In this document: positions 28,413-45,703 of the stretch, one piece after another
Layout of the letters: the number at the start of each line of letters is the position of its first letter
Position numbering within the stretch: position 1 is the first letter of the stretch
NCBI RefSeq assembly: GCF_902729405.1
Contig: NZ_LR746496.1
Span: 1,674,001-1,738,000 of the forward strand
From: Acididesulfobacillus acetoxydans
Lineage (GTDB): Bacteria; Bacillota; Desulfitobacteriia; Desulfitobacteriales; Desulfitobacteriaceae
Direction: 5' to 3'
Length of the DNA stretch: 64,000 nt
The notes under the pieces: generated by a model
Database searches by the model: none
Seen by the model: only the letters and a program-made list of their open reading frames with translations
What the model was told of the DNA's origin: nothing
Made by a program: the position numbers and the translations under genes

Positions 28413-29516
28413 TTGTCTGAGACGAACCAAGACATGTTGGTTGATTTGGATGATGTAAAGAGGATTAGGGAAATGGATTCCTTGGCTTCCATCGTAGCAA
28501 CGGAGAATTACGACCTCCAGTTCAGAGAGGCTGTGGAAATAGGTGGAGCATTTGAACCGGGTAGACCGGGGAGCACCATTCACGAGATTGTTATCTTGGG
28601 CACCGGCGGTGGCTCAGCCGTTACGGGAGGATTGTTGAGGTCATTTCTCTTTAACCAGCTTAGCCAGCCCATTGTTATCTGTCAGGGGTACAACATTCCG
28701 GCCTATATTGACGAGCATAGTTTGGTACTAGTCATGTCGCACTCTGGTAACACCGAGGAAATTCTCTGTATGTATGATCAGGCTAAGGCTAAGGGTGCAC
28801 ATTTAATCTCAATAACATCCGGAGGTACCCTCTTAGCGCGAAGCAGGCAGGACGGTGTAGAGAGCTTGGTAGTACCCTGTGATATTGGGCATCCCCGCCG
28901 GGATTTGGGTTATCTTTTTGTAACAGCCGTAATCTTACTCCATAAATTAGGGCTTATTGATGACAAAACCTCGGAGTTAGAAGGGGTTGCTGACTTGTTC
29001 GCTCTCTTGAGAGAAAAATATAGACCCGAAATTCCGTCCGAAAGGAATTTGGCAAAGCAAATTGCGTTCAGGTTGGCCTGGCGGATACCCGTTATATACG
29101 GATCATCGGATTATTATGATTCGGTCGCGTGGAGGTGGAAAAACCAATTTGGCGAGAATAGCAAGCAGATGTCGTTTTACAATGTGATTCCGAATATCCA
29201 TCATGATGAGGCTGTGGGTTGGGAAGCGCCGGACGAGATAATGCGGAATTTTCACTTCATCATACTTCGGGACAATGAACTCGATCGGGTGGAGGTTAAG
29301 AAGAGAAAAGATGTGACCGCGAAAATGTTGAAACAGAAACAAGCGGGGATTACAGAGGTAGATGCCGAGGGGGTGGGAGTACTAGCACGGATGTTTTCCT
29401 TAATATACCTTGGCGACTTTGTGTCCTTGTATGCTTCGATTTGCAGGGGGATAGATCCCACGCCAGTAGGAATCATTAATCTATTCAAGAAAGAAATGGC
29501 GGAGTGGTCGAAGTGA
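28413..29516 (+). CDS. SIS-domain sugar isomerase (phosphoglucose/phosphomannose isomerase-like)
   Basis: 367 residues starting at a TTG next to a purine-rich AAGGAAGGAG. It has two SIS subdomains: the first with VILGTGGGSAVTGGLLRSF and VMSHSGNTEEIL, the second around IPVIYGSSDYYDSVAWRWK and the HHDEAVGWE motif that marks bifunctional phosphoglucose/phosphomannose isomerases. It probably interconverts an aldose and a ketose phosphate, or acts on an amino-sugar phosphate as AgaS does. The stop overlaps the next gene's GTG by 4 bases, so the two are translationally coupled. Confidence 0.85.
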   Translation: MSETNQDMLVDLDDVKRIREMDSLASIVATENYDLQFREAVEIGGAFEPGRPGSTIHEIVILGTGGGSAVTGGLLRSFLFNQLSQPIVICQGYNIPAYIDEHSLVLVMSHSGNTEEILCMYDQAKAKGAHLISITSGGTLLARSRQDGVESLVVPCDIGHPRRDLGYLFVTAVILLHKLGLIDDKTSELEGVADLFALLREKYRPEIPSERNLAKQIAFRLAWRIPVIYGSSDYYDSVAWRWKNQFGENSKQMSFYNVIPNIHHDEAVGWEAPDEIMRNFHFIILRDNELDRVEVKKRKDVTAKMLKQKQAGITEVDAEGVGVLARMFSLIYLGDFVSLYASICRGIDPTPVGIINLFKKEMAEWSK

Positions 29517-30442
29517 TTTTAACCGTTACACTAAATACAGCGATTGATAAAGCTTATAAAGTCGAGAGTTTCCAGCCCGGCCAGGTTATAAGGGTTAAGG
29601 ATGCGAAATATTCAGCCGGTGGTAAAGGGCTGAATGTAACGCGGGTGATTACAACGTTAGGTGAGCCGGTACTTGCCATAGGATTTAGCGGAGGCTACGC
29701 GGGGATGTTCGTCGAAAGTGAACTTAACAAGGCGAAAATTCCGCATCAGTTTGTCCGTATACAAGGAGAAACAAGGTCCTGCATTAACATTATAGATAGC
29801 TCTACGGGGGTCCAGACTGAGCTGTTAGAACCGGGCCCCACGGTCGAAGAAGAGGATCTCAGCAAACTGATTGATCTTTACGAAAGAGAAGTGGACTTAT
29901 GTGACGTGATAACGCTATCCGGTAGTGTACTCAATGGAGTTAAGGAAAATATATACAGAGTATTGGTTGAGATTGCCCGCAGCAAAGGCAAAAAGGTGAT
30001 TTTAGACACGAGCGAAAGGTACTTAGTGGAAGGGACAAAATCCTACCCGACACTTGTTAAACCAAACGTTAATGAGGCTGAGTATCTGCTCGGTACCAAA
30101 ATCAGAAACGTCACGGACGCGAAGTCCGCTGCAAAGCATCTTGTGAAATTAGGCGTTCAATTGGCAGCCATATCATTGGGGAGAGACGGTGCGGTTGTGG
30201 CGACGGAGAAGAGAACGTACTATGCTAAAGCCCCCAGCGTCCAGGCCTTGAATACCGTGGGTAGCGGTGACGCAATGGTCGCAGGATTTGCCGTTGCTCT
30301 GGCAAGAGGGTATGGTGTCGAGGAGATGTTGAAATTGGGAGTTGCCGTGTCCGCGGCAAACGCGGTAACCATTGAAACGGGAAGTTGCAAATTGGAGGAT
30401 ATTCAGTTTTTCTTGAGACAGGTGGCGGTGACAGGGATGTAG
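29513..30442 (+). CDS. PfkB-family kinase (tagatose-6-phosphate kinase / 1-phosphofructokinase)
   Basis: 309 residues, the LacC/FruK length. Starts MILTVTLNTAIDKAY at the GTG at 29513, overlapping the SIS stop by 4 bases. PfkB signatures are SAGGKGLNVTRVI and the catalytic-base motif NTVGSGDAMVAGFAV near residue 250. It would phosphorylate tagatose 6-phosphate or fructose 1-phosphate to a bisphosphate for the GatY-like aldolase at 31349. That fits a galactitol pathway: PTS, dehydrogenase, kinase, aldolase. Confidence 0.88.
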   Translation: MILTVTLNTAIDKAYKVESFQPGQVIRVKDAKYSAGGKGLNVTRVITTLGEPVLAIGFSGGYAGMFVESELNKAKIPHQFVRIQGETRSCINIIDSSTGVQTELLEPGPTVEEEDLSKLIDLYEREVDLCDVITLSGSVLNGVKENIYRVLVEIARSKGKKVILDTSERYLVEGTKSYPTLVKPNVNEAEYLLGTKIRNVTDAKSAAKHLVKLGVQLAAISLGRDGAVVATEKRTYYAKAPSVQALNTVGSGDAMVAGFAVALARGYGVEEMLKLGVAVSAANAVTIETGSCKLEDIQFFLRQVAVTGM

Positions 30443-30525
30443 GGATAGTGGAGGCGGTAATCTAGTCATGCTACTATTAAGGTAGAGAAATAAACCATAG
30501 AAGAGTATAGACGGGTGGTAACGCA

Positions 30526-31308
30526 ATGAGAATTGCAGCACAGCGACAAAAAGTCATCATGGATAAAATACGGGCCGGTATACCGATTAACGTCGGGGAA
30601 TTCAGCCGTGAACTGGGAGTTTCCACCATGACGATTAGGCGTGATTTAGAAAGGCTCGAAATAGAGGGCCTCCTTACAAGAACACATGGTGGGGCCGTCC
30701 CTTTAAACGGATCGTTTGAGGAACCGTCGTTTGCAGAGAAAATGAGCCAATTTCCTGAAGAGAAAATGGCAATTGCCAAAAAGGCTTCGGAATTAATTGA
30801 AGAAGGGGATACTGTTCTCCTAGGCGCGGGTACGACCTTAACGGCTCTGGCGAAGTTATTGAAAAACCGGCAAAACCTTACAATAGTAACTAACACAGTA
30901 AATGTAGCTATGGAACTGGCGCAAAGCGAAGGAATTCAGCTTATTTTAACGGGGGGGCATATTCGCACAAAGTCTTACGCCCTTGTCGGTCCGCTGACGG
31001 AAAGAGTGTTCCGTGAGGTACACGCCAAAAAAGTTTTCTTGGGTGTTAACAGCATCAGCATAGAACATGGATTAAGTACGCCTGACATGACGGAAGCTTA
31101 TACTAATGCCCAGATGATTGACTCTGCTGATAAACTTATCGTTCTGGCTGACCATTCGAAATTTGGCCAAGGTGCCTTGTCGCGGTTCGCCGACATAGCA
31201 GACATTGATACGTTGATTACGGATAACCGCACTCCGCTGCATTTCCTGGAACAGGCCAGAAAGCGCAGTGTAAATGTGATCATAGTGAATCCGGGGGAAC
31301 CCAGCTAG
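30526..31308 (+). CDS. DeoR-family transcriptional regulator
   Basis: 260 residues. N-terminal helix-turn-helix (VGEFSRELGVSTMTIRRDL, then EGLLTRTHGGAV) and a C-terminal DeoRC sugar-phosphate-sensing domain (residues about 75-235; VLLGAGTTLTALAK, GPLTERVFREVHAKKVFLG). DeoR proteins usually repress neighbouring sugar genes and release on binding a sugar phosphate. It lies inside the kinase-aldolase operon, 83 bases after the kinase gene, so autoregulation is likely. Confidence 0.93.
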   Translation: MRIAAQRQKVIMDKIRAGIPINVGEFSRELGVSTMTIRRDLERLEIEGLLTRTHGGAVPLNGSFEEPSFAEKMSQFPEEKMAIAKKASELIEEGDTVLLGAGTTLTALAKLLKNRQNLTIVTNTVNVAMELAQSEGIQLILTGGHIRTKSYALVGPLTERVFREVHAKKVFLGVNSISIEHGLSTPDMTEAYTNAQMIDSADKLIVLADHSKFGQGALSRFADIADIDTLITDNRTPLHFLEQARKRSVNVIIVNPGEPS

Positions 31309-31348
31309 TCAGGTATTGCGGTGAGTACAAGGGTGGGAGGAAAATATA

Positions 31349-32203
31349 GTGGATTTGGTAAATTCAAAAGAGCTTTTAGAACGTGCTCGTGCGGGCGGCT
31401 ATGCCTTAGGGGGATTCAATATTCATAATCAAGAAACTATACAAGCAGTTGTTGAGGCGGGGTTTGAACATCGCGCACCGGTAATCCTTCAGGCGACTCC
31501 TGGAACGGTTAAATACACCGGGAGTGACTTGCTTGTGGCGATGGCCCGAGCTCTGGCGATACGGGCGAACGTACCGATCGTACTGCACTTGGACCACGCT
31601 ACGGATCTGGAATTAATTGAAGAATGTGTTAAAGCCGGTTTCACATCGGTCATGTTTGACGGCTCACGTTTGAAATGGGAAGAAAATATCCGCCTAACAC
31701 GCTGGGTTGTAGGTTTGGCCCATAGCAAAGGGCTTACGGTGGAAGCCGAGTTGGGACGGATTGGCGGTCAGGAAGAGGTAACGATCGTGAGCGATTCCGA
31801 GGTGAACTACACGGATCCCGGTGACGCAAGACGATTTGTCCAGGAAACAGGGGTTGATTCGTTAGCAATTGCCATAGGTACGGCTCATGGGGTTTACAAG
31901 AACGAACCAAAGCTGGATCTCCAGCGGCTCGAAGCCATCGCCTTGGCTGTAAACGTTCCACTAGTACTCCATGGGGCCTCAGGAGTGCCTGATGCCGCGA
32001 TTACCAGAAGTATAAGTCTTGGTATAAGTAAAATTAACATCGCAACAGATTTGAAATTGGCCTTGGCGGCGGCATTGAGAAGTGCTCTTCTTGCGAAACC
32101 AGAGGAAAATGACCCCCGTCGCTACTTTGCCAAAGCACGCGGTGAGGTCAAAAACGTCGTGAGCCAAAAAATGCGTCTATTCGGTATCGAAGGGCGGGCG
32201 TAG
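31349..32203 (+). CDS. Class II bisphosphate aldolase, GatY/KbaY-like
   Basis: 284 residues, the same length as tagatose-bisphosphate aldolases GatY and KbaY. Zinc ligands are visible in VLHLDHATD, IGTAHGVYK and LVLHGASGVP; the GGQE motif occurs in the 140s. It cleaves tagatose or fructose 1,6-bisphosphate to dihydroxyacetone phosphate and glyceraldehyde 3-phosphate. Start is the GTG at 31349 after GGGAGG. Context with the galactitol EII, dehydrogenase and kinase favours tagatose bisphosphate, but fructose bisphosphate is possible. Confidence 0.9.
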   Translation: MDLVNSKELLERARAGGYALGGFNIHNQETIQAVVEAGFEHRAPVILQATPGTVKYTGSDLLVAMARALAIRANVPIVLHLDHATDLELIEECVKAGFTSVMFDGSRLKWEENIRLTRWVVGLAHSKGLTVEAELGRIGGQEEVTIVSDSEVNYTDPGDARRFVQETGVDSLAIAIGTAHGVYKNEPKLDLQRLEAIALAVNVPLVLHGASGVPDAAITRSISLGISKINIATDLKLALAAALRSALLAKPEENDPRRYFAKARGEVKNVVSQKMRLFGIEGRA

Positions 32204-32424: not shown

Positions 32425-33732
32425 ATGTTTAAGAGAAAATTAAGGAGAGTCTTCTTGCCGTTAATGGTGAGCATGTTGGTCGTTGGGATGTTTGCTATTG
32501 GCTGCGGTCAGACAAACACTCAAGCGGCGGGGCAAAGTTCCCAGGGTAAACCGGTGACGATCAACTTCATGGCAGATTCACGCCCGGAATTTGACAAAAT
32601 GGAGCAACTCCTGCCTCAATTCGAGAAGAAGACCGGGATTCATGTGAACTATATGAAGCTGCAAGAGACGCCTCTGAGGGCGAAGACTGGTCTCGAAGTG
32701 TCGGCCCCGTCGACCGACATAGACGTGTTCATGACGGATTTCATGTTCCTTAATAAGTATGCGAAGGCAGGTTACTTGGCACCCCTCGATAAATATCTCG
32801 ATGCTAGCAGTACATTTAATAAAGCCAATTACATGAAACCTTTTATCGATTCCGTCAGCTACAAAGGGCAAATTTACGGCATGCCTTTGTATCAAGACTG
32901 TAACATCCTGGTATATAGGGCTGACATCTTTAAAAAACTCCATCTAACGGTACCAAAAACCTTTGCTGAACTTGAACATGACGCCAAAGTCATTAAAGAA
33001 AATGAGCCCGGTATGGCGGGGATCGTTATGAGAGGACAACGAGGATATGGAGTCAACGAATGGACTTGGCCGACCTTTCTTGAGGGATTTGGTGGAAGTT
33101 ATCTGACTCAAGACGAAAAAGCGGGTAATCTCACGTCTCCGGAAGCTATCCAAGCGCTGACCTATTATACAGACATCTTGAAAAAGTATGGACCGCCCGG
33201 AGTTGCCAACTATTCTTATGTTGAGGTGCAAAACGACATGATGCAGGGCAAAGTGGGGATGTTTGTTGACTCAGCCACTTTGGCTCCGCGTTGTGAGGAC
33301 CCCAGCGCATCAAAGGTGGCCGGAAAGCTGGGTTTCGCCATGGTTCCTGGAGATAAAGCGGTTGCTCCGGGGTTCTACAGCTGGACATTGGCGGTGCCGG
33401 CACATGCAAAACATAAAGCGGCGGCTGCGAAATTTATTGCCTGGCTGACGAGTCCTAAAATTGCGACCGAGTGTGGTTTTTCCGCACCGAATCAGGCTTT
33501 AGAGAAGGTTTATAACATTCCGGCTTATCCGGGCACGGAACCTTTGATTGACGTTATGAAAGCTTCTCTCAAACTGGCTAATCCGGATTATAGACCGCGC
33601 ATTCCGCAGGCTGATCAGGTAGGAACCGCTGTTTCCGTTGCTATCTCCTCCGTTTTGGATGGGTCTAAGACCCCGAAGGAAGCACTCACGCAAGCAAATG
33701 ACGAGGTAAACCGTATTCTGCAAGGAAAATAG
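32425..33732 (+). CDS. ABC transporter sugar-binding lipoprotein
   Basis: 435 residues, family 1 extracellular solute-binding protein. The N-terminus has a lysine/arginine-rich start, a hydrophobic core and a lipobox ending FAIGC, so Cys27 is the lipidated residue. The mature part begins with a low-complexity linker, then VTINFMADSRPEFDKME. AAGGAGGG precedes the ATG. It would capture a sugar or polyol outside the membrane for the two permeases that follow. Confidence 0.93.
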   Translation: MFKRKLRRVFLPLMVSMLVVGMFAIGCGQTNTQAAGQSSQGKPVTINFMADSRPEFDKMEQLLPQFEKKTGIHVNYMKLQETPLRAKTGLEVSAPSTDIDVFMTDFMFLNKYAKAGYLAPLDKYLDASSTFNKANYMKPFIDSVSYKGQIYGMPLYQDCNILVYRADIFKKLHLTVPKTFAELEHDAKVIKENEPGMAGIVMRGQRGYGVNEWTWPTFLEGFGGSYLTQDEKAGNLTSPEAIQALTYYTDILKKYGPPGVANYSYVEVQNDMMQGKVGMFVDSATLAPRCEDPSASKVAGKLGFAMVPGDKAVAPGFYSWTLAVPAHAKHKAAAAKFIAWLTSPKIATECGFSAPNQALEKVYNIPAYPGTEPLIDVMKASLKLANPDYRPRIPQADQVGTAVSVAISSVLDGSKTPKEALTQANDEVNRILQGK

Positions 33733-33933
33733 TCTTAGCGAGACCGGCGGCTGACGCATCGGACGCAGCCGCCGGATTTAAAAACTCAGCGCGGCAACCC
33801 TCGTGGGGAGTGTCCAGTCGAGCAGTGTAATCACTTCGGATTTTCGATTTGCTCGGGGATTCTTTGGCGGTTGTGTACAATCTGCGTATTAGAAGCAGTC
33901 GGCAGATATGATGCCTTGGTGGGAGTTGAAGAG

Positions 33934-34845
33934 ATGGAAGCGGAACAAAGATACAGAAGGATCTTACGGATCAAGGACAAACATTATGTAGCGCTGTTTT
34001 TGGCTCCGGCTATAGCGGCACTTATTTTGCTGACAATTTACCCTATGCTCTATAGTTTGAAAATCAGCTTCTTTAATTGGAATCTTACCGTTCCTGGTTC
34101 GCAAAACCAATTTGTCGGTTTGCAGAATTACGCTGAGATTCTTAAACACGGAGAATTCTGGCATTCTCTGTGGATAACTATTTGTTTTACCTTTTTTAGC
34201 GTTTTGTTCTGCATGGTCATTGGGACTAGTTTAGCGTTTCTTATGTTCCAGAACCTAAAAGGGGCAAGTATCGTTCGGACGTTTGTTATTTCCGCGATGG
34301 TGATTGCCCCAATCATTGTGGGAACGGCCTGGCGGCTAATGTACAACCCGGGTTGGGGATTAATTAATTACTTCCTTTCTGTGGCCGGTATTGGGGGACG
34401 ACCGTTCTTGGCACAGGCGAGCACCGTACTGCCCGCGTTGATTGTAGTTGATGTATGGGAGTGGTCGCCTCTGGTTATGGTGATAGTTCTTGCGGGACTC
34501 CAGGGGCTGTCCCCAGAAGTCTATGAATCTGCTAGGGTAGATGGGGCTTCTCGTTGGCAAACGTTTATTCATATTACGTTACCACTACTGAAACCAGCGT
34601 TGCTACTGTCCCTATTGATAAGAACTATGGACGCCTTTCGGACTTTCGATACCATTTATGCTATGACCGGCGGAGGCCCAGGGCGCTCAAGCGAAAATCT
34701 GAATATCCTCATGTACAATACCGCTTTCGAGTATTTCCAAGTCTCTAAAGCGGCCAGCATGGCTCTCTTAAGTCTAATTGTAATTACCGTCATCTGTACT
34801 TTGATCTTCAGAGTATTTCGGAGGAACGAGGGTGAAGCACAGTGA
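33934..34845 (+). CDS. ABC sugar permease, MalF/UgpA type
   Basis: 303 residues with six hydrophobic segments. The cytoplasmic EAA loop is visible as YESARVDGASRWQTFIHITL near residue 212. I choose the ATG at 33934 with GGGAG 8 bases upstream, rather than an upstream ATG that adds an implausible N-terminus. Its last codons overlap the next permease start by 4 bases. No ATPase gene is present in the operon, so a shared MsmK/UgpC-type ATPase elsewhere must drive it. Confidence 0.92.
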   Translation: MEAEQRYRRILRIKDKHYVALFLAPAIAALILLTIYPMLYSLKISFFNWNLTVPGSQNQFVGLQNYAEILKHGEFWHSLWITICFTFFSVLFCMVIGTSLAFLMFQNLKGASIVRTFVISAMVIAPIIVGTAWRLMYNPGWGLINYFLSVAGIGGRPFLAQASTVLPALIVVDVWEWSPLVMVIVLAGLQGLSPEVYESARVDGASRWQTFIHITLPLLKPALLLSLLIRTMDAFRTFDTIYAMTGGGPGRSSENLNILMYNTAFEYFQVSKAASMALLSLIVITVICTLIFRVFRRNEGEAQ

Positions 34846-35669
34846 GAAATAGAAAAAGACTTATACGCATTCTCCTTTATGCCCTCTTGTTGATTGTCTT
34901 CTGCGTTTACGTCACACCGATTTGGTATATTGTAACCACTTCTTTCAAACTAGAACGAGACGCATATGCCATTCCACCCAAAGTTTTTTTTGTTCCTACC
35001 TTGGCCAATTATTTTGACGCCTTTTCCGGACGGGGAATGGGACACAATTTTTTTAACAGCCTCGTCGTTTCCAGTGTCAGCAGCGTTTTAGCCTTGTTAC
35101 TAGGCACTCCGGCAGCCTATGCCCTTTCTCGCTTCGAGTTTAAGAAGAAAGAAAGTATCTTCTTTTGGTTTCTAAGTACACGTATGGCACCATTTATCTT
35201 GGCGGGCTTACCCGTTTACCTTCTGTCTAAGCAAATTGGTTTGTATGACACCAGGACCTTACTTGTGATTATGGACATGCTGATCAACCTGGCTTGGGTT
35301 GTCTGGATGATGCGCTCATTTTTTGACGACATTCCGCCGGATATTGATGAAGCGTGCATGGTAGACGGTTGCAGTCGGACTTCGGCCCTTTTTCGGGTTA
35401 TCCTGCCTTTAGCTACCCCCGGCCTTGTTGCCTCTACGATTTTCTGCCTGATTATGAGTTGGAATGAATATTTCTTTGCCATGATTTTGACAAGTTTCAA
35501 TGCCCAAACGCTGCCTGCAGCCATTTCGTCTTTTTTGACGGTTTACGGTTTGCTGTGGGGCCAGATGGCCGCAGCGGGTACTGTCATCGCTATTCCAATC
35601 ATGGTTTTTGTATTCTTTATGCAGAAGCATATTATCCGCGGACTGACAATGGGCGCGGTGAAAAGTTAA
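34842..35669 (+). CDS. ABC sugar permease, MalG/UgpE type
   Basis: 275 residues with six hydrophobic segments and the EAA loop DEACMVDGCSRTSALFRVIL near residue 170. The GTG start overlaps the stop of the preceding permease in a GTGA. It forms the membrane channel together with the gene at 33934. The C-terminus RGLTMGAVKS is typical for this subfamily. Confidence 0.93.
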   Translation: MRNRKRLIRILLYALLLIVFCVYVTPIWYIVTTSFKLERDAYAIPPKVFFVPTLANYFDAFSGRGMGHNFFNSLVVSSVSSVLALLLGTPAAYALSRFEFKKKESIFFWFLSTRMAPFILAGLPVYLLSKQIGLYDTRTLLVIMDMLINLAWVVWMMRSFFDDIPPDIDEACMVDGCSRTSALFRVILPLATPGLVASTIFCLIMSWNEYFFAMILTSFNAQTLPAAISSFLTVYGLLWGQMAAAGTVIAIPIMVFVFFMQKHIIRGLTMGAVKS

Positions 35670-35697
35670 AGATTTAAGATTAAGACAGGTGAAAGGT

Positions 35698-37185
35698 ATG
35701 CAGTATGTACTGGGAATTGACTTGGGGACCTCCAGCTGTAAAACAGTCCTGTTTACAGACAAGCTCATTGTCGTGTGTTCAGCCAGCGCAGAATATGGAA
35801 CTTCTTATCCCCGTCCGGGGTGGGCTGAACAGCGAGCGGAAGAGTGGTGGGAGGCACTCAGACAGACGGTTTCCCGTGTTTTGACGGAGAGCCGAATCAA
35901 GCCGTCGGAGATAGCTGCCATTGGAGTGGATTCACAGGGAAGCACTGTTTTGCCAGTGACTGCCGAGGGACAGGCACTTCGCCCCGGTTTAATCTGGATG
36001 GACCGGAGGGCAGAGGTACAGTGCCGCTGGATTGATGAAAACTTGGGAGACAGCTTGTGGCAGATCAGTGGAAACCATAATGATCCCTCGAATATTGCCC
36101 CTAAGGTTTTGTGGCTCAAAAATAACGAACCGGATGTTTACAGTCGAGCCGATAAGTTCATGCACGCGAACGGTTACCTAATTTATAGATTAACCGGTCA
36201 GTTTAGTATGGATAAATCTGAAGGAGGTCTGACCCAGCTGTTTGATACGGTGCGGGGCTCATGGTCCGAGGAACTCATCATGTCATGTGGTATTGATCGA
36301 GCCAAGTTGCCGGATATCTACGACTGCTTTGAGGTGGTCGGACAGGTAACAACGGAGGCTGCGCGAGAGACTGGCCTATGCCAGGGAACCCCAGTGGTTG
36401 CCGGCGCTATGGATATGGTGGCTTCAGCCTTGGGTGCCGGGGTGTACCACGCGGGAGAAATGTACGTTGCCGCGGGAACCGTAACAGCCCTGGGGGTTGC
36501 CGTGGACGAGCCTAAGTTTACACATTCGATGCACCTTTACCATCATATTATCCCCGATCTCTGGATTAACGCTGCGGGGGTAGACTTTGGTGGAGGGGGC
36601 CTGCGATGGCTAAGGAATGTCCTGTCGGAAGAGGATTACCTTATTCTAAACGATTTGGCGCAGGAGTCGTGCCCCGGTAGCAACGGTTTAATATTCCTTC
36701 CCTACATGGTGGGACAGCGTGCTCCGCTTTGGAACAGTGCCACTCGCGGTGTAATCATGGGCCTACATCCCGCCACGGGTAAGGCGGACTTTATTCGCAT
36801 GTTCATGGAGGGTAATGCCTTTGGAGTACGCAACATTCTAGATATCGCTGAGAAGGAGGGTTTGGCGGGTGGATCCATACGAATGACGGGAGGTTGTACC
36901 CAAAGCCCGATCTGGACGCAAATCTTCGCAGATATCACCGGCAAGAACATAGAGGTGCCGGGCGCCCTGGATGTAGCGGCATTGGGCTCGGCTGTCACTG
37001 CCGCGGTTGGGATTGGGATGTTCCGTGGCTTTGAGGAGGCTTTAACGGGATATTCGCTGGAAAATACTTATCAGGTTAGGAGTTCCGAACATCAACTTTA
37101 CGAAAAGATGTTTCGAATCTACAAGCGGATCTATGCAAACTTGCGGGAGGAGTTTACTCTTCTTGCGGAGATCGGGTTTTCTTAA
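35698..37185 (+). CDS. FGGY-family carbohydrate kinase (xylulokinase-like)
   Basis: 495 residues. N-terminal phosphate-binding GIDLGTSSCKT, then the catalytic-base region AGAMDMVASALGAG and the second phosphate motif AAGTVTALG. The C-terminal MTGGCTQSPIWTQIFADITG is the usual FGGY signature. It phosphorylates a sugar or polyol delivered by the ABC importer just upstream (20 bases apart). Xylulokinase is the nearest familiar member, but FGGY specificity cannot be read by eye. Confidence 0.88.
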   Translation: MQYVLGIDLGTSSCKTVLFTDKLIVVCSASAEYGTSYPRPGWAEQRAEEWWEALRQTVSRVLTESRIKPSEIAAIGVDSQGSTVLPVTAEGQALRPGLIWMDRRAEVQCRWIDENLGDSLWQISGNHNDPSNIAPKVLWLKNNEPDVYSRADKFMHANGYLIYRLTGQFSMDKSEGGLTQLFDTVRGSWSEELIMSCGIDRAKLPDIYDCFEVVGQVTTEAARETGLCQGTPVVAGAMDMVASALGAGVYHAGEMYVAAGTVTALGVAVDEPKFTHSMHLYHHIIPDLWINAAGVDFGGGGLRWLRNVLSEEDYLILNDLAQESCPGSNGLIFLPYMVGQRAPLWNSATRGVIMGLHPATGKADFIRMFMEGNAFGVRNILDIAEKEGLAGGSIRMTGGCTQSPIWTQIFADITGKNIEVPGALDVAALGSAVTAAVGIGMFRGFEEALTGYSLENTYQVRSSEHQLYEKMFRIYKRIYANLREEFTLLAEIGFS

Positions 37186-37230
37186 GCCTAAGTGTTAATG
37201 AACTCAAAAAGAGAGAAAGGGTGCTAATTT

Positions 37231-38376
37231 ATGGATAAACTTACGCCGCGCCAGAGGGTGGCTATTGCACTGAACCATCAGGAGCCGGATCGCGTGCCCA
37301 TTGATATTGGCTCAACCGCTTGTAGTTTTACTAACGATCTTTTTCAGAGAATGAAAGCGCATCTTGGGATTACAAGCCGTGACATCGTGATGCGTCCGGA
37401 TGAGAGTGCAGCCTTCTACAACGATGATTTACTTGAGGCTCTCGGTGTTGACTTTCGCCACCTCTTTTTGATGCCGTCGGATAGTCACGATTTTGGCGTG
37501 GACGCTGAAGGTTGCATGGTGAGCGAATGGGGATTGAAAAAGAAGAAGGTCGACGGATTATCCATCATTGTTAACAAGCCCCTTGAAAACGCCACATTGG
37601 ACGACATCGACAGATATCCCTGGCCGGATCCTTTCGATCCCAGCCGGGTCAGGGGTTTAAGGCAAAGAGGCCAGTACCTTTATGAACATACCGAGTATGC
37701 CTTGGCCGCACGGGCGGTTTCTCATGGGTTCTTCGAATTGGCCTGGGAACTCAGGGGGATGGACAATTTTCTGGTCGATATGATGGTTGACAAGGAATTT
37801 GCCACGAAGCTGCTTGACAAGACTCTGGAGATTCAAATGCAGTTCTATGAGGTACTGCTCAGAAATGTTGGTCCCTACCTGCAAATTGTGGAGACAGCCG
37901 ATGACTACGGTACTCAGAACGGTCCAATGATGTCTCCGAATTTATTCCGCGAGATGATTAAGCCACGGCGCAAAAAGTTGAATGACCTTATTAGAAGTTT
38001 GGCACCTCAGGCCAAGATTTTCCACCACACTTGCGGTTCAGTATATCTTTTGATCGACGATCTCATTAAGACCGGTGTCGATATCCTGAATCCGGTTCAA
38101 CCCTTGGCCAAGGACATGGACTCGTTCCGACTAAAGAAGGAATTCGGGAGCCGCCTTTGCTTCCACGGAGGCGTGGATGAACAGCGGGCTTTGCCGGGCA
38201 GCAAAGCAGAGTTAGCAAGGGAAATAAAGATTCGTTTGGCGGCATTTGCCCAGGGCGGCGGTTACATTATGGCTCCCACCAGTAATTTCCAAGCCGATAC
38301 TTCAATCGAAAATATCCTCTTCTATTTGGAGACCATCAAGGAATATGGCCTGTATCCAATTCGAGTCGTCGAATAA
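37231..38376 (+). CDS. URO-D-fold methyltransferase-like protein, paralogue 1
   Basis: 381 residues of the uroporphyrinogen-decarboxylase superfamily (N-terminal LTPRQRVAIALNHQEPDRVPID). It is not a likely HemE: His266 and Cys268 in FHHTCGS and Cys310 in RLCFHGGVD reproduce the H-x-C...C zinc site of the corrinoid-dependent methyltransferases MtaA and MtbA and of O-demethylases in this fold. These activate a methylated substrate or coenzyme thiol and exchange methyl with a corrinoid protein. A second paralogue follows and a corrinoid protein is encoded 2.5 kb downstream. The substrate is unknown; operon context points to a methylated polyol or sugar. Confidence 0.82.
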   Translation: MDKLTPRQRVAIALNHQEPDRVPIDIGSTACSFTNDLFQRMKAHLGITSRDIVMRPDESAAFYNDDLLEALGVDFRHLFLMPSDSHDFGVDAEGCMVSEWGLKKKKVDGLSIIVNKPLENATLDDIDRYPWPDPFDPSRVRGLRQRGQYLYEHTEYALAARAVSHGFFELAWELRGMDNFLVDMMVDKEFATKLLDKTLEIQMQFYEVLLRNVGPYLQIVETADDYGTQNGPMMSPNLFREMIKPRRKKLNDLIRSLAPQAKIFHHTCGSVYLLIDDLIKTGVDILNPVQPLAKDMDSFRLKKEFGSRLCFHGGVDEQRALPGSKAELAREIKIRLAAFAQGGGYIMAPTSNFQADTSIENILFYLETIKEYGLYPIRVVE

Positions 38377-38421
38377 TTTGTAGATACGCTATGTCTTAAG
38401 CCGGTTGGAAGGAGGATGAGG

Positions 38422-39555
38422 ATGAATTCGCGGGAAAGAGTGTTGGCAGCGATTAATCATAAGGAGCCCGATCGGGTGCCCCTTTATTTTGGCGGTACGT
38501 CATCATTCATGACAGACGAGGCCTACTTTCAGTTAAAAGATTATCTTGGGATTACTGGGGATGTAGAAGCATACCGTGAAGGACACACCGGAAATTATTT
38601 TGATCAGCGTATCCTGGAAGCGTTAGACGCAGATGTGCGCTTCGTGCACATGAAGAAAGCAGCCGCAACTCCTGTGCGCAGGATCGATGAAAATACCGTC
38701 TTGTGTGACTGGGGAGTGCCTATTCGGAAAATCGATGGTTACGGAGTTCGGGTGGATCCGCCATTAGCCCATGCTACAAAAAGTGATATAGCCTGCCATC
38801 CGTGGCCGGATCCTTACGATCCGGGCCGGACAGCTGGACTGGCACTAGCAGCCCGCACTTTACGGGAACAAACGGATAAAGCAGTAGTAGCACGTTCTCC
38901 CCAATCAGCCAGTTTTTTGGAATATGGAGCTTGGTTGCGCGGAATGGAGCAGTTTCTTATGGATCTACTTCTTGACAGGGGGTTTGCAGAAGCACTTTTG
39001 GATAAGATTCTTGATCTCCAAATAGGATTCTATGACGCTTTATTGACAGAGGTAGGCAGGTACGTAGACATTGTCGAGACTGCTGAGGATTACGGGACCC
39101 AGAACGGCTTGCTTATCTCTCCGCAGTTATTTCGGGACATCATAAAGCCTCGTCGCAAGGCCATCAATGATTTTATTAGAAAGAAGGCACCAGGGGCCAA
39201 AATTCTCCACCATAGTTGCGGAGCCATCGAACCGATCATTACCGACTTGGTCGAAGTAGGTGTAGATATTCTCAATCCGGTCCAACCCCTGCCGAACATG
39301 AACCCGAGCGAGATCAAGAAGAAGTATGGAGATAAAGTTGTCCTCTGTGGAGGAGTTGATATGCAGAATACAGGCTTGCAGGACCCCTATCTTTTGGAAC
39401 AGGAAGTTGTTTTACGCATAGAGCAGCTGGCATCCGGAGGGGGCTATCTGTTTGCTCCGTCTAACCATATCCAGCCAGACCTGCCGACGCGCAGTGTGGT
39501 GGCCTTGTTCGCTTTGGCGAAAAAACACGGGGTTTACGGGCGAAACGAGGCTTAG
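38422..39555 (+). CDS. URO-D-fold methyltransferase-like protein, paralogue 2
   Basis: 377 residues, clearly homologous to the preceding protein over its whole length (shared VETADDYGTQNG-like and VDILNPVQPL-type segments) but well diverged. The zinc-site residues are His264, Cys266 (HHSCGA) and Cys309 (VVLCGGVD). I start at the ATG at 38422, 7-8 bases after GGAAGGAGG; an ATG at 38416 overlaps the ribosome binding site. Two adjacent paralogues could form a heteromer or act on two methyl groups or stereoisomers. Confidence 0.82.
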   Translation: MNSRERVLAAINHKEPDRVPLYFGGTSSFMTDEAYFQLKDYLGITGDVEAYREGHTGNYFDQRILEALDADVRFVHMKKAAATPVRRIDENTVLCDWGVPIRKIDGYGVRVDPPLAHATKSDIACHPWPDPYDPGRTAGLALAARTLREQTDKAVVARSPQSASFLEYGAWLRGMEQFLMDLLLDRGFAEALLDKILDLQIGFYDALLTEVGRYVDIVETAEDYGTQNGLLISPQLFRDIIKPRRKAINDFIRKKAPGAKILHHSCGAIEPIITDLVEVGVDILNPVQPLPNMNPSEIKKKYGDKVVLCGGVDMQNTGLQDPYLLEQEVVLRIEQLASGGGYLFAPSNHIQPDLPTRSVVALFALAKKHGVYGRNEA

Positions 39556-39585
39556 TGTTATAGGCTTACAGATTTGGAGGTAAGA

Positions 39586-40629
39586 ATGAAAGCTGCGATC
39601 TTACATGGACAAATGGACTTGCGCTACGAAGAAAGGGCTCTTCCGTCAATCGGATCTGGGGAAATCCTAGCCAAGGTCAAGATAAGCGGCATTTGCGGTT
39701 CCGATCTTCCTCGCGTTTTAGGTAACGCTGCCCATAGCTATCCCATTGTTTTGGGACACGAGTTTTCTGGAGAAGTGACCGAGCTCGGGTCAGGCGTGAA
39801 GAATATCAGTGTGGGACAGCATATTGTTGGAGCGCCACTTTTGCCCTGTCATCACTGTGAGGACTGTCTACGCGGCTATTACTCCCAGTGCAAAAACTAC
39901 TCGTTTATTGGTTCACGTACTGACGGCAGCTGGGCCGAATATGTGAAAATGCCTGCTGTGAATGCGGTTCCATTACCGGAAGGTGTTGGGGATAAAGAAG
40001 GGGCGTTCTTTGAGCCGGCGACTGTCGCCCTGCATGGTTTGTCCCAAATGAATTTTCGCGGTGGTGAAGACGTTGCCATCGTTGGCATGGGAACTATTGG
40101 CCTCCTGACGTTGCAGTGTGCTCACGCCCTAGGCGCGAAGCGTATCTTTGCCTTTGACATAGATTCGCGTAAGTTGCAGCTTGCGAAAGAATTGGGAGCC
40201 GATGTCGTTCTCAACACGGGTGCTGAAGATTTCGCCGAAAGATATGCATGGGAAACTAAGGGGGCGGGTGTATACCAGGTGATCGAGACGGCTGGAGTGG
40301 AGTTTACCGAAAAGCTGTGCCTAGAGATTGCCGCTAATAAAGGACAAGTGATGTACATTGGCACCCCTACTCGTAGCGTGTCCTTTGAACCTCGCGAATT
40401 CGAGCGTATTAACCGAAAGGAACTGACAGTTCGTGGCTCCTGGATGTCTTACTCAGCTCCCTTCCCTGGACAGGAGTGGAGACTCGCCGGTCATTTTTTT
40501 CAGAAAGGCAAAATACAGTGTCAGGGCCTTATAGACCGTATTGTTCCATTATCGGAAATCAACGCTGCCTTCCGCGATTTGCAGATTCCCGGCGAGGTGA
40601 AGGGCAAGATACTGCTAAGGTGTTCCTAA
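39586..40629 (+). CDS. Zinc-dependent medium-chain dehydrogenase, third paralogue
   Basis: 347 residues. Catalytic zinc ligands are in GICGSDLPR and GHEFSGE; the structural cluster is CHHCEDCLRGYYSQC. The Rossmann motif is VAIVGMGTIGLLTLQ. It is closest in texture to sorbitol- and galactitol-phosphate dehydrogenases, like the gene at 17532. In this operon it could oxidise the demethylated or phosphorylated polyol. The ATG at 39586 follows GGAGG by 5 bases. Confidence 0.85.
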   Translation: MKAAILHGQMDLRYEERALPSIGSGEILAKVKISGICGSDLPRVLGNAAHSYPIVLGHEFSGEVTELGSGVKNISVGQHIVGAPLLPCHHCEDCLRGYYSQCKNYSFIGSRTDGSWAEYVKMPAVNAVPLPEGVGDKEGAFFEPATVALHGLSQMNFRGGEDVAIVGMGTIGLLTLQCAHALGAKRIFAFDIDSRKLQLAKELGADVVLNTGAEDFAERYAWETKGAGVYQVIETAGVEFTEKLCLEIAANKGQVMYIGTPTRSVSFEPREFERINRKELTVRGSWMSYSAPFPGQEWRLAGHFFQKGKIQCQGLIDRIVPLSEINAAFRDLQIPGEVKGKILLRCS

Positions 40630-40858
40630 ATTCGGTGATTTCTGCCCCATGAGGAGCTTAATAGGGGGGGAGTCTCCCGGAGACAGGTCAAGAGCACCAT
40701 TTCGGCGAAGGTTGGAGTTGGGCGAAGGTTTTTTGAGAGCCTAATTTATCGATCACGAAAGGGCGTTTGCAGACAATGGGACGGACAGCGGGAAACCAGT
40801 TTGAACTTTATTACGTTGCAAAATTAAATTATCGCGGGATTTTCAGGGGGTATAGTAT

Positions 40859-41479
40859 ATGTCAACATTACAAGAGATGGCCGAAGCCGTCATTTGCGGA
40901 AACGCCAAAAAGGTCAAAGAGATTGCCGAAAAGGTTTTGTCTGAAGGCATTGCTCCCCAGACCATTATCAATGATGGCTTGATTGCCGGAATGAACGTGG
41001 TCGGGGTTAAATTCAAGAATAACGAGGTCTATGTACCGGAGGTCCTCATTGCGGCCCGGGCCATGCATGCCGGGATGGATGTAGTCAAACCGCTCTTGTC
41101 CGCGAGTGAAGTGCAGGACAAAGGGATCGTTTTGATTGGCACGGTGAAAGGAGACCTCCATGACATCGGGAAAAACTTGGTGCGCATGATGTTGGAAGGT
41201 GCCGGTTATAAGGTCATTGACGTGGGGGTGGATGTGTCGCCGGAGAAGTTCGTTCAGGCTGTCGAAGAGCATAAACCGCAAATCGTAGGTCTGTCTGCTC
41301 TTTTGACAACCACCATGGTCAACATGAAAAGCACCATCGAACTGCTTGAATCCCATCCGGTGAAAGTTATGATCGGTGGCGCACCTGTTACGCAAAAGTT
41401 TGCCGATGAGATCGGGGCCGATGCCTATGCCCCCGACGCAGCTACGGCGGTGGAGTTAGCTGACAAGCTTTTGGCTTGA
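40859..41479 (+). CDS. Corrinoid protein (MtaC/MtbC-type B12-binding)
   Basis: 206 residues. A helical cap domain (residues 1-85; KVLSEGIAPQTIINDGLIAG and VYVPEVLIAARAM) precedes a cobalamin-binding Rossmann domain with the D-x-H-x-x-G motif GDLHDIG, where His101 is the lower cobalt ligand. This is the methyl carrier of corrinoid methyltransferase systems. It is the last gene of the ABC-kinase-URO-D operon. No methyltransferase II or RamA-like activator is encoded next to it, so those must act from elsewhere. Confidence 0.92.
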   Translation: MSTLQEMAEAVICGNAKKVKEIAEKVLSEGIAPQTIINDGLIAGMNVVGVKFKNNEVYVPEVLIAARAMHAGMDVVKPLLSASEVQDKGIVLIGTVKGDLHDIGKNLVRMMLEGAGYKVIDVGVDVSPEKFVQAVEEHKPQIVGLSALLTTTMVNMKSTIELLESHPVKVMIGGAPVTQKFADEIGADAYAPDAATAVELADKLLA

Positions 41480-42405
41480 CTTTTGGCATAATGGACCAAA
41501 GGATAACTGTTTCGAAAGGCGTTAGAGAAGGCAAATTTACAACCGGCACAGCGACAATTGCGGATTGACCGCACGATGCGCTAACGCGCTATAGGTTTAG
41601 GAAAAACAACCAAGAATCCATAAAATAACCGAGAGAAAGTCACTCGAAGGGGTGACTTCCTCTAATTCGGTGCGCCACGCATGATGATTAACTTGACGAT
41701 GACAGTCCGTTATGGGGGTATGTAGCGACCAACCATTAGCTCAAGGCAAGGGTGTCGATCGTGGGGTGGATCCGAAGGTAGCCGGCGGCAAAGTTCCGCC
41801 CCGAGGAACACGGTAAAGTAAGGGGGTATTTTGTTTAGTCCAGGTGTTATTGCTAAGCTATCCAGTCCAAAGGTTGAAGGCAAAAGTTGTCTTTAATTTG
41901 ACGGCGTACGTGTCCAAAAGGCTTGTTCACGCGATTGTGAGCAAAAAATCTGACGAGCTAAAATGTCCACATTTGCGGACTGACTGACAGACGGACAATA
42001 ATGCACTCTTTCTGTAAGATACTGGCACTTAACGTCGTCAATATATAGACATTATAGGGTAGTAGAAACACCTACTCTCCAGCGTTTTGATATCCAGGCT
42101 GTATGCAAAAAGCAAGTTGATTTAACGCGGTCTATACCGCTGTCAATGTGCAAACTCTGCGCCGTGTGTGTCTAATTCTAGCCGCAATTATCTAACCCCG
42201 GAGACGTAGGATATCTAACGCGAACGACTTATTTAGTGTGAGCACCCGAAGCAGTAAAAAACCTGCGGCGATCCCGAATGGATAGCTCGATGAGCCGGGA
42301 GGAATTAGACTGAAATTGGCGAATAGTTACGTATACGAGAGTGAAGAATATCATTCGACGATGTAGAACGAAACTCCTCTAGAGTTTGAAGGAGAGTAGA
42401 TTTAG
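41480..42405. other. Long non-coding gap with group II intron scrap
   Basis: About 930 bases with no supported protein gene. A 7-bp stem-loop AAGTCAC/GTGACTT (about 41636-41659) may be a weak terminator. The 5' end of a group II intron lies at about 41670-41822 (separate entry). The last 250 bases carry no recognisable feature except a short inverted repeat AAACTC/GAGTTT just before the IclR gene, possibly its operator. Confidence 0.5.
41670..41822 (+). ncRNA. Group II intron 5' fragment (domain I)
   Basis: The sequence begins GTGCGCC, a group II intron-like 5' end. It then contains AGCTCAAGGCAAGGGTGTC, GGTGGATCCGAAGG-AGCCGGCGGCAAA and GAGGAACACG in the order I know from domain I of bacterial group II introns. 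No reverse transcriptase/maturase reading frame and no domain V/VI follow, so it is a truncated relic. Confidence 0.6.
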
Positions 42406-43218
42406 ATGCAGAAAGAGCCCTCAGTGATAAGATCACCCATTAAGTCCGTATCCAAGGCGCTTAAAATCATCGATTTTTTGGCAGAGGCAAGGCGGGATGT
42501 TTCCCTGGGTGAAATAGCTAAAGAAATGAACCTTGCCAAAAGCACGGCTTACGGGCTTTTGGCAACACTAAGGGATTTCGATTATGTTGAACAGTCACCC
42601 TTTGATGGCAAATATCGTTTAGGCATCCGGCTCTTTGAAGTGGGCAACGTCGTTGCGAACACATGGGATGTGCGTCAGATTGCCGGACCCCATATCGAAT
42701 ATTTGGTAGACAATCTGGGAGAGACGGTGCATCTGGTAATCTTGGATAAGGGAGAAGTTCTCTATATTGATAAACGGGAGAGCAAGCAATCATTGCGAAT
42801 CGTTTCGCAGGTGGGGAATCGCTTGCCGGCCCATTGCACCGGGGTGGGCAAGGTCTTGCTGGCGCACCTTCCGGCGGGGGAACTGAAACGACTCCTTGCC
42901 GTTAAAGGGTTAAAACGATACACGAAAAACACGATAACGGAGGAAAAAGTTTTGCTTGAGGAACTGAAAAAGATAGGCCGGCAGGGATACTCCATTGATG
43001 ATGAAGAGATTATGGATGGCCTCCGCTGTGTGGCTGTTCCGATTCGGAACTTTTCCGGCAAGGTTATTGCGGGGATGAGTGTATCGGGTCCGACGGCCCG
43101 TTTGGATGGAGAACGACTGGAGAGCATCATTGAGCATATGCTAAAGACCGGCCAGGATATATCTGCCAGTCTGGGTTACAGGTCGGGGGTGGGAGGGAAT
43201 GCTCATGGATGTTCGTGA
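42406..43218 (+). CDS. IclR-family transcriptional regulator
   Basis: 270 residues. Winged helix at residues about 10-75 (KALKIIDFLAEARRDVSLGE, AKEMNLAKSTAYGLLATL) and IclR effector domain (VGNRLPAHCTGVGKVLLA, then RCVAVPIRNFSGKVIAGMSV). It heads an operon for 2-oxopentenoate breakdown and overlaps the next frame by about 14 bases. IclR proteins often control aromatic acid catabolism, which agrees with the enzymes downstream and the BenE-type permease. Confidence 0.94.
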   Translation: MQKEPSVIRSPIKSVSKALKIIDFLAEARRDVSLGEIAKEMNLAKSTAYGLLATLRDFDYVEQSPFDGKYRLGIRLFEVGNVVANTWDVRQIAGPHIEYLVDNLGETVHLVILDKGEVLYIDKRESKQSLRIVSQVGNRLPAHCTGVGKVLLAHLPAGELKRLLAVKGLKRYTKNTITEEKVLLEELKKIGRQGYSIDDEEIMDGLRCVAVPIRNFSGKVIAGMSVSGPTARLDGERLESIIEHMLKTGQDISASLGYRSGVGGNAHGCS

Positions 43219-44005
43219 ATTCCTCTTTGCTCCGCTCCAGGGGAAAACCTATAAGTTTTCCATAAAGTCCCGGGAGAACGGAATTTTCTCCGGAGCCGCT
43301 CGTCTCAAGGATATGGCGGCGGAATTGGGTATAGCTCAGTTCCGGGTGCGGCCCGAGGGACAAGAATTACACGCAGGCAGCCTCGTTTTTTCAGGGATGG
43401 GTAACGCTGAAACGGTGACCAAAGCGGAGGAAATTCTTCCAGGGGTGATCGGCAAGCCTTCTGGGGTTGCCACCGCCGCTGCGGCCTTCACCCAGAAAAC
43501 GCAGAGGCTTAAGGTGGTCTGCGGGGCTTGGAAAAAGGTTGACAGGGCTGTAAGAAAGGAACTGCGCCAGGCGGTGATCACCGGTGGTGCTGAGTTGCGC
43601 ATCACCGATGAACCGTTTATCTATCTGGATAAAAACTACATCAGAATGTTTGGTGGAATCGCCGTCGCGGTGGCCAGGGCAAAAGCGTTCGACGCCAGTC
43701 GAGTGGTGGTGGCCCAGCTTCGGGGTGAGAGTATGGATATCGCTTCAGAGGCCAACCTGGCTGTCAGGGCGGGCGCTGGTATTCTCATGGTGGATACAGG
43801 TCAGGTATCGGATCTTCGACTCGTAGTCGCGGCAGCGGAGCAAGGGGGTTGGCGAGAACGCGTGCGCTTGGCCTTTGCCGGGGGTGTGAACGTCCAGCAA
43901 TTGGAGGAGCTGGCCAACCTGGGGGCAGATATTGTAGACGTAGGCCGGGCGATTCTTGATGCGCCTATGCTCGATTTCTGCCTGGATGTGGAAGGAGAGT
44001 TGTAA
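43205..44005 (+). CDS. QPRTase-fold protein (ModD/NadC-like)
   Basis: 266 residues with the nicotinate-nucleotide pyrophosphorylase fold. GKPSGVATAAAAFTQK replaces the usual FLSGIAT-x-T motif, and the C-terminal barrel has GILMVDTGQVSDLR and FAGGVNVQQLEELANLGADI. The residues around RITDEPFIYLDKNYIRM differ from the canonical DTRKTTPGLR quinolinate site, so it probably acts on another pyridine or heterocycle, or is a ModD-type accessory protein. Start at the ATG 43205, 8 bases after GGGAGG. It is the first enzyme gene of the operon. Confidence 0.72.
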   Translation: MDVREFLFAPLQGKTYKFSIKSRENGIFSGAARLKDMAAELGIAQFRVRPEGQELHAGSLVFSGMGNAETVTKAEEILPGVIGKPSGVATAAAAFTQKTQRLKVVCGAWKKVDRAVRKELRQAVITGGAELRITDEPFIYLDKNYIRMFGGIAVAVARAKAFDASRVVVAQLRGESMDIASEANLAVRAGAGILMVDTGQVSDLRLVVAAAEQGGWRERVRLAFAGGVNVQQLEELANLGADIVDVGRAILDAPMLDFCLDVEGEL

Positions 44006-44887
44006 ATGGAATGGGAGCTCCTGGAAAAAACGACCTTTTGGATCGATGATATCGAGTTAAACCACGCCAATTTAGGCGAGGCGGCCAAAATTGCTGCTGA
44101 AGCACTTGGCTTAATGCCAGAGGAGGTGATGGTTGTCGATGTACGGCCAGGCATGATTGCCTTTGATGTCTTAAAACACAAGGTCCAGGCCGAAAGGGTG
44201 GCTGGCAAAGGGGAGGAGATTCTGAAGGGTTTAGCGGCTCTACCCGGAGTCACAAGAGGGGAAAAAGCAGCGATTCACTCGGAAGGCGTTCTGGGGTTCA
44301 TCGCTCTGGATCCCGAGGAAGTGAAAAGTGTGCTTGAAGCATCTGCTGTTCAGGCTCAAGGGATTAGCCAGGCCGTTGCGCGCAGGGCCATCGTGTTCTC
44401 TTCCGGGGCTGAGGTGATCGCCAAGAAGATTGAGGATACGAATTCTCCCTATATTACGCGAACATTAGAAAGCCATGGTTATCAAGCGCGATTTGGCGGC
44501 ATTCTGGAAGACGACGCCAAGGCTGCGGCGGCAGTCTTGGAAGGGGCACTGGAGGCTGGGTATGGCTTAATTATCACGACAGGCGGTGTGGGAGCAGAGG
44601 ACAAGGACTATAGTATTGAAGCGGTTCTGCGTCTTGATCCCAAAGCCTACACACCCTGGATCCTGAAGTTTACCCCGGACTTCCACCGCCACCACAAAGA
44701 GGGGGTACGGATTGCGGTCGGACAGGTGGGAATTGCCCTCTTGGTGGCTTTACCCGGTCCACATGAGGAAGCTCGCCTGGGGTGTGACCGCCTGGTCGAA
44801 GGTTTGGCGCACGGGTTGACGGCTCCGGAACTGGCCGATGTCATCGCCTCCGCCCTGCGAGAACGTTGGCATTCGATGATGAATTAA
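44006..44887 (+). CDS. MogA/CinA-fold molybdopterin-binding-like protein
   Basis: 293 residues. The C-terminal half carries a MoCF-biosynthesis-like fold: VARRAIVFSSGAEVI, then GLIITTGGVGAEDKDYS, the usual TGG-x-G-x-x-x-D signature. The N-terminal 140 residues are not recognisable and may bind a substrate. It starts directly after the preceding stop. In related clusters such proteins accompany molybdenum hydroxylases, but none is encoded here. It may prepare or insert a nucleotide cofactor. Confidence 0.68.
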   Translation: MEWELLEKTTFWIDDIELNHANLGEAAKIAAEALGLMPEEVMVVDVRPGMIAFDVLKHKVQAERVAGKGEEILKGLAALPGVTRGEKAAIHSEGVLGFIALDPEEVKSVLEASAVQAQGISQAVARRAIVFSSGAEVIAKKIEDTNSPYITRTLESHGYQARFGGILEDDAKAAAAVLEGALEAGYGLIITTGGVGAEDKDYSIEAVLRLDPKAYTPWILKFTPDFHRHHKEGVRIAVGQVGIALLVALPGPHEEARLGCDRLVEGLAHGLTAPELADVIASALRERWHSMMN

Positions 44888-44900
44888 GGAGGACATGAGC

Positions 44901-45674: not shown

Positions 45675-45703
45675 ACTCAATGTGAGGAGATGAAGACGTA
45701 ACC

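Follow-up and report, generated by a model that had tools for sequence, protein, structure and literature searches.

A candidate corrinoid-dependent O-demethylation operon for a methylated polyol or ketose in Acididesulfobacillus acetoxydans

Within a 64,000-nucleotide stretch of DNA from Acididesulfobacillus acetoxydans (contig NZ_LR746496.1, positions 1,674,001 to 1,738,000; hereafter the window), a run of genes at 32425–41479 combines a sugar ATP-binding cassette (ABC) importer, a carbohydrate kinase, two proteins of the URO-D family, a polyol-type dehydrogenase and a corrinoid carrier protein. The gene content and comparisons across genomes indicate that this operon is probably a module for the corrinoid-dependent O-demethylation and catabolism of an O-methylated polyol or ketose. 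URO-D and corrinoid genes are also paired within rhamnose, galactose and xylulose operons, and proximity to sugar importers distinguishes this URO-D subfamily from MtaA-like URO-D genes.

The source genome is closed and 4.52 Mb in length. All genes of the run lie on one strand, as determined from the list of open reading frames (ORFs) and a Pfam scan with matches well above cut-off, and every gene named in an earlier reading of the letters alone (the original prediction) was recovered in its place and orientation:

32425..33732, +, SBP_bac_1 substrate-binding lipoprotein of a sugar/polyol ABC importer (PF01547, 155 bits)
33871..34845, +, ABC importer permease 1, BPD_transp_1 (PF00528)
34842..35669, +, ABC importer permease 2, BPD_transp_1 (PF00528)
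35689..37185, +, FGGY carbohydrate kinase (FGGY_N/C), nearest to xylulokinase (PF00370/PF02782)
37231..38376, +, URO-D-1, proposed methyltransferase I (PF01208, 76.6 bits)
38416..39555, +, URO-D-2, proposed second methyltransferase I or partner (PF01208, 78.4 bits)
39574..40629, +, zinc polyol dehydrogenase (ADH_N/ADH_zinc_N), similar to galactitol-1-phosphate 5-dehydrogenase (NF007642, 328.9 bits versus a cut-off of 550)
40859..41479, +, corrinoid (B12) carrier protein (PF02607, B12-binding_2, and PF02310, B12-binding; DxHxxG at residue 99)

Intergenic gaps from permease 1 to the dehydrogenase measure −4 to 45 bp, and the substrate-binding protein gene is followed by a gap of 138 bp. The run contains no gene for an ABC ATPase, a pterin-binding methyltransferase II or an activase. 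The nearest solved relative of the substrate-binding protein is the sorbitol-binding protein 4rya (E = 2.8e-44), that of the kinase is the xylulokinase XylB (2itm) and that of the dehydrogenase is GatD (4a2c, E = 8e-81). The kinase scores below the xylulokinase equivalog (TIGR01312, 348.7 versus a cut-off of 380), and the dehydrogenase, which misses the NF007642 cut-off and is thus GatD-like only, has a secondary match to the scyllo-inosose dehydrogenase IolM (174 versus a cut-off of 450). Naming the substrate by family cut-offs was abandoned, as the kinase, the substrate-binding protein and the dehydrogenase all fall below their equivalog cut-offs; their matches point to a polyol or ketose pathway but not to a particular compound.

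URO-D and corrinoid genes in sugar operons

The same pairing occurs in operons in which the sugar can be read from the genes. In the window’s own genome, locus L146 encodes RhaS and RhaI (both above NCBIfam cut-offs) together with two permeases, a microcompartment shell protein and a kinase resembling rhamnulokinase; its URO-D and corrinoid genes are placed between DeoR and RhaI. Locus L031 of this genome holds a ribose-type (Rbs) importer followed by URO-D, corrinoid, GalT, GalK and GalE genes, of which GalE is above cut-off. Two further clusters there, L030 and L148, combine an importer with URO-D and corrinoid genes around a sugar that is not readable; in L148 the pair is accompanied by MocA-type oxidoreductase and xylose-isomerase-like genes, and this cluster may be a better place than the window operon to look for methyl-inositol. 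A congener has a rhamnose version (L046; RhaI and AldA above cut-off, with a rhamnulokinase-like kinase) and a galactose version (L035; GalT and galactokinase above cut-off), and another family member has a xylulose version (L039; xylulokinase XylB above cut-off); all three include URO-D and corrinoid genes. In L040, an importer, two URO-D genes, a corrinoid protein, a pterin-binding methyltransferase II and the activase RACo lie in a single run. The simplest common factor of these operons would be that the sugar arrives methylated and must be unmasked. Because the URO-D proteins of L146 and L148 score as members of branches other than that of the window’s pair, the pairing with sugar operons probably arose more than once.

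Two of these loci have additional neighbours. Directly upstream of the rhamnose operon of L146 (1020–8528) are genes for a PduT-like shell protein, a phosphate propanoyltransferase, an aldehyde dehydrogenase and, judged by sequence, an apparent acetate kinase; microcompartment-type genes of this kind suggest deoxy-sugar breakdown in a microcompartment. Beside the importer/URO-D cluster of L030 (11066–16629) are two MttB-family genes with corrinoid proteins, and an Rfam PYLIS_3 match falls within an uninterrupted MttB ORF.

The window operon itself has relatives in which two separate lines of URO-D orthologues can be followed. URO-D-1 has orthologues of 59–60% identity in L021 (a Blautia metagenome-assembled genome, MAG), L022 (a Lachnospiraceae MAG) and L023 (a Spirochaetia MAG), and the URO-D-2 line is represented in L021 (49%) and L023 (53%). 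As the Blautia and Spirochaetia relatives retain the importer, the FGGY kinase and both URO-D genes, the position of the paired URO-D genes, with a sugar importer on one side and a corrinoid gene on the other, is not a chance arrangement. In L022, the URO-D-1 orthologue occurs with two FGGY kinases, a GatD-like gene and, between the latter and the orthologue, a GatY-like aldolase; this gene set therefore ties the aldolase encoded upstream of the window’s run (see below) to the system. All three genomes encode corrinoid proteins and RACo elsewhere, and the sole corrinoid protein found in the Blautia genome adjoins a URO-D gene, a methyltransferase II and RACo (L085).

The window operon includes its own cognate corrinoid protein (40859–41479), the closest relatives of which are corrinoid proteins beside sugar-cluster URO-D genes (267–368 bits), compared with mostly about 170–190 bits for those beside MtaA-like controls. 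It scores below the curated cut-offs for the glycine-betaine and methanol corrinoid proteins MtgC and MtaC (NF047996, 235 versus 370; NF040655, 144.6 versus 420). The remaining machinery is present at the level of the genome, which encodes 18 B12-binding_2 domains, several candidate pterin-binding methyltransferases (II), 4 RACo proteins and acetyl-CoA synthase.

We counted genes on the same strand within 6 kb of 57 subfamily URO-D loci and of 20 MtaA-like URO-D controls from one order, a set in which the loci are not fully independent. A sugar-importer permease was nearby at 29 of 57 subfamily loci versus 0 of 20 controls (p = 2e-5), a sugar kinase at 21 of 57 versus 0 of 20 (p = 9e-4) and a corrinoid gene at 17 of 57 versus 15 of 20. 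The association with sugar genes is thus a property of this URO-D subfamily and not of URO-D genes at large. Among 398 sampled genomes of the phylum, in which the subfamily was called at E ≤ 1e-55, RACo was present in every one of the 34 genomes that carry the subfamily and in 184 of the 364 that do not (218 of 398 overall; p = 7e-10). The central idea of the original prediction, that a methyl group is taken from an O-methylated sugar or polyol and the backbone is then used, is thus supported by the URO-D and corrinoid pairs in rhamnose, galactose and xylulose operons and by the link to importers.

Some URO-D genes have other settings. In L041, L042, L106, L107 and L111, a conserved cluster joins a sugar importer and URO-D with genes of the fucose-isomerase-like, MocA and class II aldolase types, and no corrinoid gene is nearby. 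A different branch of the subfamily (L101, L103, L104, L105 and L109) has conserved clusters, also without a corrinoid gene, that by sequence include a kinase, amino-acid dehydrogenases and subunits of 2-oxoacid:ferredoxin oxidoreductase.

Fold and metal site of the URO-D proteins

The two URO-D proteins are approximately 380 amino acids each and 42% identical. In an alignment of 68 subfamily relatives (residue numbers are those of URO-D-1 unless stated), there is no variation at Asp225 or His266, and Cys occupies position 268 in 89%, with mostly Asp in the remainder. The HxC of the subfamily profile aligns with that of MtaA, in which the HxC and the Cys of APGCGI bind zinc; the latter Cys aligns to Ser351 in URO-D-1, Asn350 in URO-D-2 and His in the subfamily consensus. 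The original prediction had proposed an H-x-C...C zinc site with C310 as the second Cys. Its H266-x-C268 part is conserved, but we reject the site as proposed, as position 310 varies (V, I, T, C, S or A) and the second Cys of MtaA is replaced. In the secondary structure of the URO-D-1 model, C310 stands at the start of its strand and H266 at the end of its own, with D225, C268 and S351 coming after theirs; these four residues, unlike C310, are predicted to lie at the usual active-site end of the barrel. Zinc is not universal among demethylases of this kind, because CdmB and a Moorella enzyme are without it, whereas the veratrole and vanillate enzymes contain it (PMC13222342).

Structural models of both proteins (pLDDT of 92 for URO-D-1 and 87 for URO-D-2) have MtaA (4ay7) as the nearest solved structure, followed by HemE. 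Together with PF01208 matches over cut-off, this places them in the fold of the UroD-superfamily O-demethylases, an assignment of fold and not of activity. They resemble MtaA and other soluble coenzyme M methyltransferases, and the MtaA-like proteins of mlp clusters, in this nearest structure and in the retained HxC. They differ from MtaA in the absence of its second zinc Cys, in scores far below the curated cut-offs (TIGR01463, 58.7 versus 235; NF040654, 47.7 versus 400) and in phylogeny, as the subfamily forms largely one group apart from the 325-amino-acid MtaA-like controls. HemE shares the fold; however, the window proteins have no tetrapyrrole context, carry HxCG in place of the HemE sequence at that position, have no NCBIfam heme-synthesis match and are surrounded by sugar genes, so we do not assign them to HemE. 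A plasmid collection contained just distant relatives (24–32% identity). One congener genome (G001) has an unusually large number of URO-D-superfamily matches, 32 in 5.3 Mb, compared with 15 in the window’s genome by the same search.

Genes flanking the run

Upstream of the run, and separated from the substrate-binding protein gene by a 221-bp gap, is a set of genes of the tagatose/fructose-bisphosphate type (28413–32203) that was absent from the list in the original prediction; the flanking genes on both sides are:

28413..29516, +, SIS-domain sugar-phosphate isomerase (bact-PGI_C; PF10432, 173.9 bits), a probable member of an associated upstream set that may share the pathway
29504..30442, +, PfkB-type hexose-phosphate kinase, similar to 1-phosphofructokinase/tagatose-6-phosphate kinase (TIGR03168, 331 versus a cut-off of 216; TIGR03828, 306 versus 292)
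30526..31308, +, DeoR-type regulator (ORF, assigned from sequence)
31349..32203, +, class II ketose-bisphosphate aldolase, GatY/Fba-like (TIGR00167, 312.8 bits versus a cut-off of 215.6; GatY subfamily, 368 versus 383)
42406..43218, +, IclR-type regulator (PF01614/PF09339), downstream of the run

DeoR-like genes also adjoin the URO-D clusters L040, L046 and L146. The IclR gene lies 926 bp beyond the corrinoid gene and more likely belongs to the next catabolic operon than to the demethylation run. The region that it opens (42406–51700) continues with genes for QRPTase/ModD-like, molybdopterin-binding-domain and FAA-hydrolase-family proteins, acetaldehyde dehydrogenase, 4-hydroxy-2-oxovalerate aldolase (DmpG-type), ferredoxin and a BenE-type transporter, a set that corresponds to a lower meta-cleavage-like pathway, in an anaerobe. 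Inside the 926-bp gap, a weak match to group II intron D1-D4-3 (41755–41927; 23.6 bits, below the gathering score of 32) is a possible intron remnant. Farther downstream (60426–61451) is a second corrinoid gene, whose product matches the N-terminal domain only in part, and after it a pterin-binding methyltransferase fragment interrupted by stop codons; the two look like a decayed methyltransferase cluster. No riboswitch in the window reached its gathering score, and promoter and terminator scans gave hits no more frequently than in shuffled sequence.

Proposed pathway and alternatives

We propose that the importer, with an ATPase supplied from elsewhere, brings in a methyl ether. One or both URO-D proteins would serve as methyltransferase I: with the ether bound in the barrel, its methyl group would be transferred to the Co(I) of the corrinoid carrier. 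A pterin-binding methyltransferase II from another part of the genome, a component that is present and to which we assign this use, would pass the methyl group to tetrahydrofolate and so to the Wood–Ljungdahl pathway, and a RACo-type activase, likewise present elsewhere, would keep the cobalt reduced or repair it when oxidized. Oxidation of the freed backbone would fall to the GatD-like dehydrogenase and its phosphorylation to the FGGY kinase; together with the PfkB kinase and the class II aldolase encoded upstream, these could yield triose phosphates. We lean towards a polyol because the substrate-binding protein is nearest to the sorbitol-binding protein and the dehydrogenase is nearest to GatD; among substrate classes, an O-methyl hexitol or ketohexose is the likeliest. 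The data show which genes are present, how they are conserved and where they co-occur, whereas the reaction, the path of the methyl groups, the part played by each URO-D protein and the substrate are inferred.

This arrangement resembles the three-component O-demethylases of acetogens (MtvB/OdmB/VdmB) and the chloromethane system CdmBCA in its URO-D-superfamily methyltransferase I, its small corrinoid protein and the availability in the genome of a pterin-binding methyltransferase II and a RACo-type activase. Unlike those systems, which act on methoxy-aromatics or haloalkanes (PMC13222342), the window genes lie in a sugar-importer/kinase operon, and the similarity to CdmB is weak (E = 1e-4 with a profile; chains of about 380 versus 429 amino acids). 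The dehydrogenase, aldolase, kinase and substrate-binding protein families are those of the galactitol/tagatose pathway (GatD, GatY and LacC) and sorbitol-type ABC importers; we are aware of no version of that pathway in which URO-D and corrinoid genes take part. In marine bacteria, an aerobic P450 route that demethylates 6-O-methyl-D-galactose likewise frees the backbone of a methyl sugar for normal metabolism, but it is oxidative, releases formaldehyde and uses unrelated proteins (PMC10033563).

Several observations weigh against corrinoid-dependent demethylation by this operon. A 229-bp gap precedes the corrinoid gene, methyltransferase II and the activase lie outside the operon in the rest of the genome, and the zinc site is incomplete relative to that of MtaA. 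No corrinoid gene adjoins the URO-D genes of L021, L022 or L023, and at 40 of the 57 subfamily loci the surrounding 6 kb contain none. The link to RACo is partly phylogenetic, as RACo is common in the same families, although a rough family-level count by hand (RACo in about 83 of 140 families) still gives a p value of about 1e-5. The local absence of corrinoid genes, together with the fact that URO-D itself is not a metal-dependent methyltransferase (PMC539065), would fit a subfamily of sugar-pathway enzymes, such as barrel lyases or isomerases, that use no corrinoid and beside which the corrinoid gene is coincidental. We consider this unlikely, given the 17 loci with an adjoining corrinoid gene, the agreement between corrinoid-protein subtype and URO-D subtype, MtaA as the nearest solved fold, and the presence of methyltransferase II and the activase as well in L040. 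The original prediction had held that URO-D genes found without corrinoid genes in most relatives would count against it; this is the case locally but not genome-wide, as RACo occurs in all 34 genomes with the subfamily and a corrinoid protein plus an activase in all 3 genomes with orthologous operons. The latter findings also weaken a conclusion drawn from L021–L023 that no corrinoid is needed.

If the operon does demethylate, its substrate could still be other than a methyl ether of a hexitol or ketohexose. The characterized URO-D/corrinoid systems described in PMC13222342 and PMC10418091 act on compounds such as methanol, methylamines, methoxy-aromatics or thioethers, or on haloalkanes, and the sugar genes might be bystanders or serve co-feeding. 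A methylated non-sugar substrate is nevertheless very improbable here: the importer and kinase genes are tightly spaced with the URO-D genes, several different sugar pathways each have their own URO-D and corrinoid gene, none of the MtaA-like controls has a sugar importer as its neighbour, and there is a separate O-demethylase cluster of classical appearance that lacks sugar genes (L149). The O-methyl-inositols pinitol and ononitol, suggested in the original prediction, are disfavoured to a similar degree. The IolM match of the dehydrogenase and the gene content of L148 point towards them, but the dehydrogenase is much nearer to GatD (329 bits) and its neighbours are a hexose-bisphosphate kinase and aldolase, with no inositol pathway. 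A methyl glycoside, with the methyl group on the anomeric oxygen rather than in an ether elsewhere on the ring or chain, is compatible with the gene content, and its methyl group, too, is attached to an oxygen of the sugar. The similarity of the dehydrogenase to GatD and the polyol-type substrate-binding protein suggest an open-chain polyol, which has no anomeric carbon, and methyl glycosides can be hydrolysed by glycosidases without a corrinoid; we regard such a substrate as having little likelihood.

Beyond the window, we favour, with some reserve, the existence of a family of anaerobic carbohydrate O-demethylases in which each sugar operon has its own URO-D methyltransferase and corrinoid protein, for O-methyl-rhamnose, O-methyl-galactose, O-methyl-xylose, O-methyl polyols and others. 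Methyl groups would enter the Wood–Ljungdahl pathway and backbones central metabolism, and about five systems of different specificity would coexist in one genome. We found no published description of corrinoid-dependent sugar demethylation in the open-licence papers searched, among which the P450 route is the nearest (PMC10033563). The operons suggest a widespread and, it appears, so far undescribed way for anaerobes to use methylated sugars. Such sugars are frequent constituents of the polysaccharides of plants, algae, fungi and bacteria. With the rhamnose and galactose versions, the proposal can be tested directly, since for both it is known which product to expect. If true, the corrinoid route would explain the use of methylated sugars by anaerobes and gut bacteria, provide functions for many URO-D genes at present annotated as decarboxylases and connect the breakdown of polysaccharides with one-carbon metabolism.

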